Assembly (NCBI GenBank): GCA_038400315.1
Contig: CP151667.1
Location: 4,413,174 to 4,477,173, forward strand
Direction: 5' to 3'
DNA length: 64,000 nt
From: Isosphaeraceae bacterium EP7
GTDB taxonomy: Bacteria; Planctomycetota; Planctomycetia; Isosphaerales; Isosphaeraceae
The notes beneath the pieces were generated by a model that was not told the origin of the DNA, ran no database searches, and saw only the letters and a list, made by a program, of their open reading frames with translations. Below are positions 9,978 through 13,497 of this stretch, piece by piece. The translations under genes and the position numbers were made by a program. Numbering within the stretch: the first letter of the stretch is position 1; the number at the start of each line of letters is the position of its first letter.

Positions 9978-10865
<888 letters not shown>

Positions 10866-11012: not shown

Positions 11013-11975
11013 ATGAACGTCGCGATCATCATCGTCAATTATCGGACCGCCGGGCTGACCATCGACTGCCTCGCCTCGCTCGCCCCCGAACGCGAGCGGA
11101 TGCCGGGGCTGCGGGTTTACCTGACCGACAACGCCTCGGGCGACGGTTCCGTCGATCTCCTCCGCAAGTCGATCGACGAGAACGGCTGGGGCGATTGGGT
11201 CCATCTCAGGCCCCTGCCGCGCAACGGCGGTTTTTCGTACGGGAATAACGAGGGGATTCGCGAGGCAATCGCCGTCGAGCCCCGCTTCGACTCCATCCTC
11301 CTCCTCAATCCCGACACCTACATCCGGCCGGGCGCCGTCCTCACGCTCGTCGAATTCCTGGAGCGGCACCCCGACGTGGGGATCGCGGGCAGCCGCCTGG
11401 AAGACCCCGACGGCACCGCTCAGCGGTCCGCGTTCCGGTTCCCGACGGTGGCCAGCGAGTTCGAGCAATCCCTCAAGTTCGGGCCCGTCTCCCGGCTTCT
11501 GGCCTCGAAGCTCGTAGCCCCTCCGGTCCCCGAGGCCGACTGCCCCACGGGCTGGGTGGCCGGGGCAAGCATGCTCATTCGCCGCAGCGTCTTCGACGCG
11601 ATCGGCCTGCTCGACGAAGCCTTCTTCATGTATTACGAAGAAGTCGACTTCTGCCTGAGGGCGGCGCGGGCGGGCTTCCCCTGCTGGTACGTGCCCGAGA
11701 GCCGGGTGGTGCACCTCGTCGGTCAGGCCTCGGGCGTGACAAACGCGGCCAAGTCCAGGCGCAGGCGTCCCGGCTACTGGTTCGACTCGCGCAGGCGGTT
11801 CTTCATCAGGAACTACGGCCGCGCCTACGCGGTCGCGGCCGACCTGGCCCACTCGACCGCATACATGGCCTGTCGGATGCGCTGCCTGCTGACGGGCAAG
11901 GCCTCGGCGGATCCCGAGCGGTATCTGCGCGACTTCTTCGGCCATAATGCGCTGATGCGGGGGACCGAGCCTTGA
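11013..11975 (+). CDS. Glycosyltransferase family 2 (rhamnosyltransferase-like)
   Basis: GT-A fold glycosyltransferase of 320 residues, similar in motif to rhamnosyltransferases that build polysaccharides. It opens AIIIVNYRTAGLTIDCL, carries LLLNPDTYI with the DxD-equivalent metal site, and the acceptor-side block GLLDEAFFMYYEEVDFCLRA near residues 193-212. The substrate is inferred only loosely. It is the first gene of a run in which stop and start codons overlap (TTGA at 11972), so translation is probably coupled to the acetyltransferase-like gene behind it. No membrane segment is evident; such enzymes act on the cytoplasmic face. Confidence 0.9.
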   Translation: MNVAIIIVNYRTAGLTIDCLASLAPERERMPGLRVYLTDNASGDGSVDLLRKSIDENGWGDWVHLRPLPRNGGFSYGNNEGIREAIAVEPRFDSILLLNPDTYIRPGAVLTLVEFLERHPDVGIAGSRLEDPDGTAQRSAFRFPTVASEFEQSLKFGPVSRLLASKLVAPPVPEADCPTGWVAGASMLIRRSVFDAIGLLDEAFFMYYEEVDFCLRAARAGFPCWYVPESRVVHLVGQASGVTNAAKSRRRRPGYWFDSRRRFFIRNYGRAYAVAADLAHSTAYMACRMRCLLTGKASADPERYLRDFFGHNALMRGTEP

Positions 11976-12538
11976 GCGACCTGGCCCGGCCGGTCCCCGG
12001 CCTCTGGGCCCAGATCCGCGAGGACTGGGTCGCCCACGGCCGCGACTGGACCAAGCCCGGCTTTCGGGCCGTCGCCGTCCATCGATTCGGCAACTGGCGC
12101 ATGACCGTGACGCCCAAGGTCGCCCGGGCCCCGTTCAGCACCCTCTATCGAATGCTCTATCGACGGGTCCGGAACGTCTACGGGATCGAGCTGCCTTACA
12201 CCGTCAGGCTCGGTCGTCGGGTCATCTTCGAGCACCAGGGCGGTGTGGTCATCCACGGCCACTGCGAGATCGGCGACGACTCGATCGTCCGCCAGTGCGT
12301 GACGATGGGCATCCGCACGCTCGACCGCCTCACGGATGCACCCAGGCTCGGACGAGGGGTCAGCGTCGGGGCTGGCGCCGTGCTGCTCGGGTCGATCACG
12401 GTGCATGACGGCGCGTCGATCGGCGCCAACTCGGTGGTCCTCGTCGACGTGCCCGCCGGCGCCACGGCCGTCGGTGTCCCGGCCAGAATCATCCCCAGCC
12501 GTACCTCGACCACGCCCGCCGAAGGCCTGGAAGGCTGA
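11972..12538 (+). CDS. Serine O-acetyltransferase-like hexapeptide protein
   Basis: Left-handed beta-helix acyltransferase of the CysE type, 188 residues. The N-terminal IREDWVAHGRDW and FRAVAVHRFGNWRM helices match those of serine-acetyltransferase-like proteins in polysaccharide clusters, and the second half is made of hexapeptide repeats (VVIHGHCEIGDDSIVRQCVTMG, then GAVLLGSITVHDGASIGANS). Next to a glycosyltransferase it more likely acetylates a sugar than serine (inference). The start is unusual: a TTG at 11972-11974 overlaps the upstream TGA by four bases; the next ATG would remove the N-terminal helix region. Its stop overlaps the next ATG by one base. Confidence 0.85.
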   Translation: MSDLARPVPGLWAQIREDWVAHGRDWTKPGFRAVAVHRFGNWRMTVTPKVARAPFSTLYRMLYRRVRNVYGIELPYTVRLGRRVIFEHQGGVVIHGHCEIGDDSIVRQCVTMGIRTLDRLTDAPRLGRGVSVGAGAVLLGSITVHDGASIGANSVVLVDVPAGATAVGVPARIIPSRTSTTPAEGLEG

Positions 12539-13497
12539 TGCCGCGGCGATTCTGCGGGATCGACGAGGCCGGCTACGGGCCGAACCTCGGCCCGATGGTC
12601 ATGGCCTCCGTCGAGGCCATCATCGATGACGAGAATCCGGCCTCCGACGGCTTCGACCTCTGGTCGTTGCTGCCTCAGGCCGTCAGCCGAGCCCGAGGGC
12701 CAGCTGCGTGCCTCTGGGTCGACGATTCCAAGAGGGTCTACAAGCCGGGCGGCGGCCTGAGCCGGCTCGACGATGCCCTCGGCTCCCTGATGTCCACCCT
12801 GGCGATTCCCGCCCCGCGCACCCTCGGCGAGGTGGCCTCCAGCCTTGAGGTGTCCGAGGACCAGGCCGAACTCGAACCCTGGGCGGAGGGAGTGCCTCAA
12901 GCGTGGCCACGCCCCTCGGAACGCCCAGGTCCGTCGCGGCTGGTGGACCTCCGAGGCAAGCATTGGCGTCTGACCAGCATCCGCGCCGTGATGGTCGGAC
13001 CCAGGCGGTTCAATGAAGGATTATCCCGCCACGGGAGCAAGGCGGGCGTGCATTTCGAGGCGTTTTCATCCCTGCTCGAACAATGCTGGACGAGAGCCGG
13101 CGACGGCATCCCCACCTCGATCCGGGGGGACAAACACGGCGGGCGCCACTACTATGCCGCCCCGGTCGCCGCGGCCCTGCCGGATGCAGGGATCGAGATC
13201 GAGGTCGAGTCGCCGGCCTTGAGTCGCTACAGGCTCGGCGGCCAGGGGAGGCAGGTCAGCCTGGGCTTCGAGCCTCGTGCGGACTCGGGCGATGGGCTCG
13301 TCGCCCTTGCATCGCTGATCGCCAAGGGGCTCCGGGAGCACTGGATGGCGATGTTCAACGGCTACTGGGCCGGCCGCATCCCCGGCCTGCGGCCCACCGC
13401 CGGCTACCCGCTCGACGCCGCCCGGTTTCGCGCCCAGATTGAGTCGACGGCCTTCGACCGGGGGCTATGTCCGGACATCTGGTGGCGACACCGCTGA
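12538..13497 (+). CDS. Divergent RNase HII-like (RNase H fold) protein
   Basis: The 319-residue protein starts with CGIDEAGYGPNLGPMV, very like the RNase HII opening GxDExGRGPLxGPV. DSKR (63-66) matches the conserved DSKK, and ALASLIAKGLREHWM (257-270) matches the RNase HII helix with ASxxAKxxRD. GYP near 289-291 fits the later GYPT block. The four acidic residues needed for RNase HII catalysis appear to be present: Asp9, Glu10, Asp198 and Asp252. RNase HII removes RNA or single ribonucleotides from DNA. This protein is about 100 residues longer, with an insertion at about 85-190. It overlaps the acetyltransferase gene by one base, suggesting cotranslation, though the link to sugar genes may be chance. 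Confidence 0.7.
   Translation: MPRRFCGIDEAGYGPNLGPMVMASVEAIIDDENPASDGFDLWSLLPQAVSRARGPAACLWVDDSKRVYKPGGGLSRLDDALGSLMSTLAIPAPRTLGEVASSLEVSEDQAELEPWAEGVPQAWPRPSERPGPSRLVDLRGKHWRLTSIRAVMVGPRRFNEGLSRHGSKAGVHFEAFSSLLEQCWTRAGDGIPTSIRGDKHGGRHYYAAPVAAALPDAGIEIEVESPALSRYRLGGQGRQVSLGFEPRADSGDGLVALASLIAKGLREHWMAMFNGYWAGRIPGLRPTAGYPLDAARFRAQIESTAFDRGLCPDIWWRHR

Follow-up and report, generated by a model that had tools for sequence, protein, structure and literature searches.

The 319-aa open reading frame found at positions 12538-13497, on the forward strand of the analyzed window (the whole stretch of 64,000 nucleotides, taken from the 7.2 Mb genome of Isosphaeraceae bacterium EP7), begins with an ATG codon and encodes a type-2 RNase H, belonging to an overlooked lineage of these enzymes, which is present in most of the sampled phylum. 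The gene is likely to encode the Planctomycetota RNase H2, a divergent type-2 enzyme performing the function of RNase HII (rnhB), an activity inferred from sequence and predicted fold. Stray ribonucleotides in DNA are very frequent lesions, and their repair is initiated by RNase H2.

Annotation of the coding region as a Planctomycetota-type RNase H2 is based on the reading frame, a PF01351 match, the homologues and the predicted fold. Comparison with the PF01351 (RNase_HII) profile, proposed as a check in the first-pass annotation, gave 31.6 bits, above the Pfam gathering score of 25.8, and all of the 67 aligned family members match the same profile at E<=1e-3. The window protein reaches none of the NCBIfam equivalog cut-offs for RNase HII (29.5 bits vs 123.3 for the best) and does not match TIGR00716, the NCBIfam rnhC model, at E<=1; this model is matched weakly by 9 out of the 67 family members, with a best E of 2.7e-6. 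PDB chains of RNase HII, H2A and HIII were retrieved by the family profile, with E down to 7.7e-14. In a protein search, 58 out of 59 genomes, the source genome included, match the window protein: the sole miss is a genome only 77% complete (G018), and in two others (G020 and G027) the gene is matched in two pieces. Given these matches, and the RNase HII, H2A and HIII chains found by the family profile, the reading frame is real, beyond what chance would produce.

Among the best 80 of at least 564 contig stretches containing a relative, 76 bear names of the Planctomycetota lineage, three are labelled just 'bacterium' and one is a 'Bacteroidales' MAG. No tblastn match to the window protein was found in the plasmid and phage collections, and no match at E<=0.001 in the viral structure library. 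A single contig of the viral collection (IMGVR_UViG_3300036766_002130) contains a homologue, L163:2848-3942, featuring DENGYGS in place of DEAGYGP; it lies near an open reading frame resembling, by reading, an IS605 OrfB transposase, and the contig may be host DNA.

The residues to be expected in an active enzyme were located by reference to the T. maritima enzyme (Tm-RNase H2), for which the available part of PMC3025331 describes an active site made of D18, E19, D107 and D124, a 2'-OH read by the backbone amides of G21-R22-G23 and by the hydroxyl of Y163, a GRG loop held by R141 and R182, and phosphates touched by K47, K122 and K138. These positions were mapped by spacing, by sequence alignment and by a profile-profile alignment of the family with RNase HII (probability 98.7, E 3.6e-16, residues 4-307), and conservation was counted over 138 different aligned sequences, the window's included, derived from 163 loci. 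Matched in this way, the putative equivalents are D9, E10, D198 and D249, G12-Y13-G14, Y290, R266, R317, K65, R247 and K263. The order of motifs initially read in the frame, GIDEAGYGP near the N-terminus, then DSKR, D198 and ALASLIAKGLREHW, was confirmed. Of the four catalytic acids in the initial reading, D9, E10 and D198 stood, while the assignment of Asp252 was wrong, the fourth acid being D249.

All features described here lie on the forward strand. The first two catalytic acids, D9 and E10, and the G12-Y13-G14 loop, aligned with D18, E19 and the 2'-OH sensing G21-R22-G23 of Tm-RNase H2, are encoded at 12562-12579. D9, E10, G12 and G14 are found in all 136 sequences covering them; the GRG motif typical of classical RNase H2 and RNase HII is never encountered, being replaced by GYG in 134 out of 136 and by GLG, with leucine for Y13, in the remaining 2. 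The tyrosine is not alarming, because the R22A mutant of Tm-RNase H2, as far as the accessible text of PMC3025331 tells, spares most substrates and is slightly less efficient only in cleaving a single-ribonucleotide substrate. The DSK motif D63-S64-K65, corresponding to D45-S46-K47 in the active-site loop of Tm-RNase H2, is encoded at 12724-12732 and is invariant (138/138). K263 and R266 (13324-13335), also invariant, match K138 and R141, which respectively contact phosphate and hold the GRG loop in Tm-RNase H2. Y290 (13405-13407), aligned by the profiles with the RNA-DNA junction-sensing Y163, is conserved in 137 out of 138 sequences, and so is R317 (13486-13488; one gap), the proposed equivalent of R182, another residue holding the GRG loop: it lies outside the 4-307 stretch of the profile-profile alignment and was aligned with the C-terminal arginine of RNase HII at the sequence level. 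Position 247 is occupied by R in 62 and by K in 44 of the 138 sequences.

The third and fourth acids are more variable. D198 (13129-13131), aligned with the aspartate of the RNase HII 'IDAP' motif, is D in 134 sequences and G in 4. D249 (13282-13284), the counterpart of D124 of Tm-RNase H2, falls on the aspartate of the RNase HII 'KAD' motif in the profile-profile alignment, and is an aspartate in 91 sequences and a glutamate in 47. Position 252 was rejected as the fourth acid, since it is D in just 30 out of 138 sequences, against an acidic residue at 249 in all of them. A deletion within residues 250-252 accompanies E249 in 36 out of 47 members and D249 in only 1 out of 91, as though a shorter loop made up for the longer side chain. 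The four members carrying D198G (L065, L074, L075 and L119) all feature E249 followed by a second acid, without the deletion. Since no other type-2 RNase H was found in three of their four genomes, activity may have been either rearranged, perhaps around a shifted metal site, or lost in these members.

Prediction of the structure of the window protein by AlphaFold2, from a 67-row alignment, produced a model with mean pLDDT 93.5 and pTM 0.93. VIA-align superposed it best on M. jannaschii RNase HII (1eke; Z 18.1, 2.5 A, 203 residues), followed by T. ammonificans RNase H3 (4py5; Z 17.0); other scores were 16.0 for human H2A (3p5j), 13.6 for E. coli RNase HII and 13.3 for the T. maritima enzyme. 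Only RNase HII, HIII/H3 and H2A structures occupy the best 25 rows, and the first row outside type 2, an RNase H chimera, scores just Z 7.1. The predicted fold is thus that of RNase H2/H3 enzymes, and the initial claim, for which any other fold would have been fatal, was not refuted. According to the superposition and the alignments, D9, E10, D198 and D249 would cluster in space.

As originally pointed out, the protein exceeds by about 100 aa the archaeal RNase HII chains it matches (about 210 aa): the extra length is mainly due to two insertions, defined on the alignment and on the model. The former (residues 88-142; 12799-12963) contains two short helices and includes the lowest-confidence block of the model, residues 121-130. 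The latter (residues ~201-245; 13138-13272) contains the family motif GGRxxY, whose R203 and Y206 are invariant, and an extra beta hairpin. At the sequence level, the two insertions and the D-K/R-x-G-G-R-x-x-Y motif mark the clade with respect to the HII and HIII sequences compared, and they probably shape substrate binding.

The relationship of the family with known enzymes was analyzed in a tree of 70 bacterial sequences, whose root is not fixed: 37 from the divergent family, 16 HIII (typed by the GKGD motif and by the TIGR00716 match of their genome), 9 planctomycete HII and 8 other bacterial HII. Archaeal and eukaryotic sequences were not included, nor were L176, L182, L184 and L190, which did not match the motif patterns, and L181 and L183, whose type is unclear. 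The divergent family and HIII each form one clade (100/100 in both cases); planctomycete and other bacterial HII join at 96/84, without the divergent family. The AU test does not reject a tree joining the divergent family to planctomycete HII (p 0.111). Profile-profile scores are 113 between the family and HII, 104 between the family and HIII, and 166 between HII and HIII. By sequence, therefore, the family is a separate clade, joined by long branches in the tree and, by profile scores, farther from both HII and HIII than these are from each other. Its separation from RNase HII in the tree makes a different substrate preference possible.

In the source genome, a protein search hits one place only, the 12538-13497 gene, and a six-frame profile search detected no other PF01351 gene; the sensitivity of this latter search is limited, as it misses the gene itself, and it was positive in 14 out of 14 control genomes. 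The suggestion that this could be the genome's RNase HII, to be checked by looking for a second rnhB, is thus the best reading. In the set of 59 genomes, PF01351 matches were found in 27, each of them on a homologue of the window gene, and RNase HI was found in 57. PF01351 matches above 27.6 bits are absent from nineteen genomes behind named loci, including Zavarzinella, Scalindua and Brocadiales. In a group of genomes which probably corresponds to Gemmataceae (family f3: G038, G043, G047, G051, G053 and G056), RNase HI matches PF00075 weakly, with E from 3.3e-8 to 1.5e-14, compared to about 1e-40 in most other relatives.

The search was extended to an evenly drawn sample of 294 Planctomycetota genomes, 273 of which match the family profile at E<=0.001: 262 matches are strong (E<1e-20) and 11 weak, the latter coming from nine genomes with an ordinary RNase HII and from two more (G158 and G238), where they are perhaps gene pieces. 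Strong PF01351 matches (>=60 bits) occupy 90 places in 89 genomes, 71 of which also contain the divergent family. The possibility that these represent canonical RNase HII was discarded, as 81 out of the 89 genomes carry RNase HIII, according to sequence inspection of examples and to TIGR00716; 81 of the 90 places coincide with an HIII place, the remaining 9 lying elsewhere. TIGR00716 itself gives rnhC-type matches of at least 65 bits in 82 genomes, in 59 of them over the curated cut-off. An ordinary RNase HII is found in just 9 out of 294 genomes (G063, G079, G083, G094, G103, G111, G123, G126 and G160), belonging to 8 families, 72-95% complete and, in eight cases, split into at least 100 contigs; eight of the nine contain no HIII, and G083 has both.

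None of the 294 genomes contains both RNase HII and the divergent family: the latter is absent from all 9 genomes with the former, and the former from all 262 with the latter (hypergeometric 7e-10, a figure which ignores relatedness). In 72 genomes RNase HIII accompanies the divergent family. RNase HI and HIII occur together in 18 genomes, HIII alone in 64, HI alone in 179 and neither in 33 (Fisher 6.6e-24, uncorrected), in agreement with the mutual avoidance of prokaryotic RNase HI and HIII reported in the consulted part of PMC1950709, which also defines the combination of HII and HIII as group C. In 57 genomes HIII and the divergent family are present and no RNase HI is detected. Because it excludes HII, coexists with HIII, and accompanies HIII in genomes with no detected HI, the gene plays, genetically, the part of HII within the set. 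Taken with the fold and the active site, this distribution supports the initial description of a divergent RNase HII-like protein. No HII, HIII or divergent family member was found in 14 of the 294 genomes, 13 of which are listed as 59-90% complete.

Six genomes of family f46 contain, along with the divergent family, a further PF01351 protein scoring about 26-52 bits, not counted as ordinary RNase HII. Examples are L182 (G140 C9:226736-227371), L183 (G102 C36:42205-42840) and L184 (G122 C1:1409447-1410076). The additional protein corresponds to a frame of about 500-700 aa, with the motif GLDETGTGELIGT in L183, and looks unlike HII, HIII and the divergent family.

With RNase HII, such as the M. 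jannaschii enzyme, the family shares the fold, the D-E-D-D tetrad, the DSK motif, the K and R of ASxxxKxxR, the junction tyrosine of GYPxD, the C-terminal arginine and the lack of an extra N-terminal domain. It differs in length (319 aa in the window protein vs about 210), in its two insertions, in having GYG for GRG, N159 and K168 in place of the ID and N/D of the HII sequences compared, the D-K/R-x-G-G-R-x-x-Y motif and, often, E in place of D249, as well as in scoring below the NCBIfam cut-offs and forming a separate clade. With RNase HIII (rnhC, TIGR00716) it shares the fold, as seen with 4py5, and a mid-domain [FY]N at 159; the likeness is partial for the DK following the strand of the third acid, present in some HIII, and for the E and loop deletion at the fourth acid, present in part of the family. 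Unlike HIII, the family has no GKGD motif, keeps the junction tyrosine and lacks the N-terminal substrate-binding domain, described as TBP-like for RNase HIII in the abstract of PMC4132731: in the AlphaFold2 model the catalytic domain opens with a strand beginning at residue 3, and no such domain precedes it. The fold is also shared with eukaryotic H2A, as seen with the human structure. Eukaryotic H2A works in complex with B and C subunits.

These comparisons bear on whether the family might have changed its job, acting as an HIII-like hybrid degrader or as a nuclease for some special RNA/DNA structure, with classical ribonucleotide excision repair either absent from the phylum or entrusted to another enzyme. 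Such a change would fit with the separate clade and with profile scores to HII and HIII below the one between HII and HIII; with the HIII-like [FY]N at 159, DK at 198 and E249 with loop deletion, the last in 36 out of 138 sequences; with the second rank of T. ammonificans RNase H3 in the structure comparison; and with a phylum largely without rnhB, according to the part of PMC11929135 consulted. We nevertheless consider it unlikely, as Y290 is kept in 137 out of 138 members, its equivalent being absent from type 3 enzymes in the portion of PMC3025331 at hand, as the N-terminal substrate-binding domain of RNase H3 could not be accommodated and as it is RNase HII, not RNase HIII, that the family excludes across the 294 genomes. 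Far less probable is that these proteins are catalytically dead or moonlighting relatives, kept for nucleic-acid binding: the four members without D198 might be so interpreted, but the residue is retained in the other 134, D9 and E10 in all 136 sequences covering them, and an acid at position 249 in all 138.

The reading frame was also initially described as coupled to sugar-modification genes, on account of a one-base overlap with an acetyltransferase gene. The overlap was verified: the TGA of the latter ends at 12538, the A of the RNase ATG. A glycosyltransferase gene (11013-11975) and the serine-acetyltransferase-like gene (11972-12538) lie between the RNase gene and a ParA-like ATPase gene (9978-10865, starting at an internal ATG), whose product is 68-84% identical to that of the ParA-like gene found upstream of the homologue in relatives. 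Homologues of the glycosyltransferase and of the acetyltransferase are absent from the flanks of all other loci in the set of 163; the coupling is therefore seen in the source genome alone, and was rejected as a conserved unit. The common neighbour in the window's family is the ParA-like ATPase, found upstream on the same strand, within the flank, in 24 out of 31 other loci in addition to the window. Elsewhere neighbours differ: a semialdehyde dehydrogenase gene lies downstream in 8 loci, four of which have Brocadiales, Brocadiaceae or Scalindua names. The overlapping frames would fit with a role in a sugar-modification cluster, with the RNase acting together with the preceding glycosyltransferase and acetyltransferase, but the absence of both genes from the other loci of the set, along with the ParA-like neighbour in the window's family and other neighbours in other groups, makes it the least credible of the alternatives. 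Since neighbours vary between groups, the gene has the appearance of a stand-alone housekeeping gene, and the ParA-like neighbour is not needed for the proposed RNase function.

As a Planctomycetota RNase H2, the protein would hold two metal ions by D9, E10, D198 and D249, and would hydrolyze the phosphate 5' of a ribonucleotide lying within a DNA duplex. Reading of the 2'-OH and of the RNA-DNA junction would fall to Y290 and to the G12-Y13-G14 loop, kept in place by R266 and R317, and phosphates would be held by K65, R247 and K263. The resulting nick would start ribonucleotide excision repair; RNA/DNA hybrids may be cut too. A more ambitious proposal, possible rather than probable in our judgement, is that the family represents a further class of prokaryotic type-2 RNase H, of a depth similar to HIII, a hallmark of Planctomycetota which replaced RNase HII and reads substrates in its own way, based on the GYG loop, on the D-K/R-x-G-G-R-x-x-Y motif with its hairpin, and on a fourth acid shifting between Asp and Glu along with the loop deletion.

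In the part of PMC1950709 available, a 2007 survey, a single planctomycete is included and placed in group E, which, by elimination from the definitions of the other groups, would correspond to RNase HI only. A 2025 study of Planctomycetota from anaerobic digesters reports, in the accessible portion of PMC11929135, that rnhB is largely lacking, as judged from KEGG annotation. Nothing on the divergent family was found in the available parts of PMC4624368 and PMC2837039, and no paper describing it in the titles and abstract starts of the open-licence literature, which does not prove it to be unpublished.

The divergent gene is most likely the RNase HII enzyme recorded as missing from Planctomycetota: a conserved type-2 RNase H found in 262 out of 294 sampled genomes would fill the rnhB gap of the phylum, and would be a case of annotation cut-offs hiding a housekeeping enzyme. 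The family may also offer a natural test of which parts of RNase H2 are essential, as its members vary in the arginine of GRG, in whether the fourth acid is Asp or Glu and, in four cases, in the third acid.
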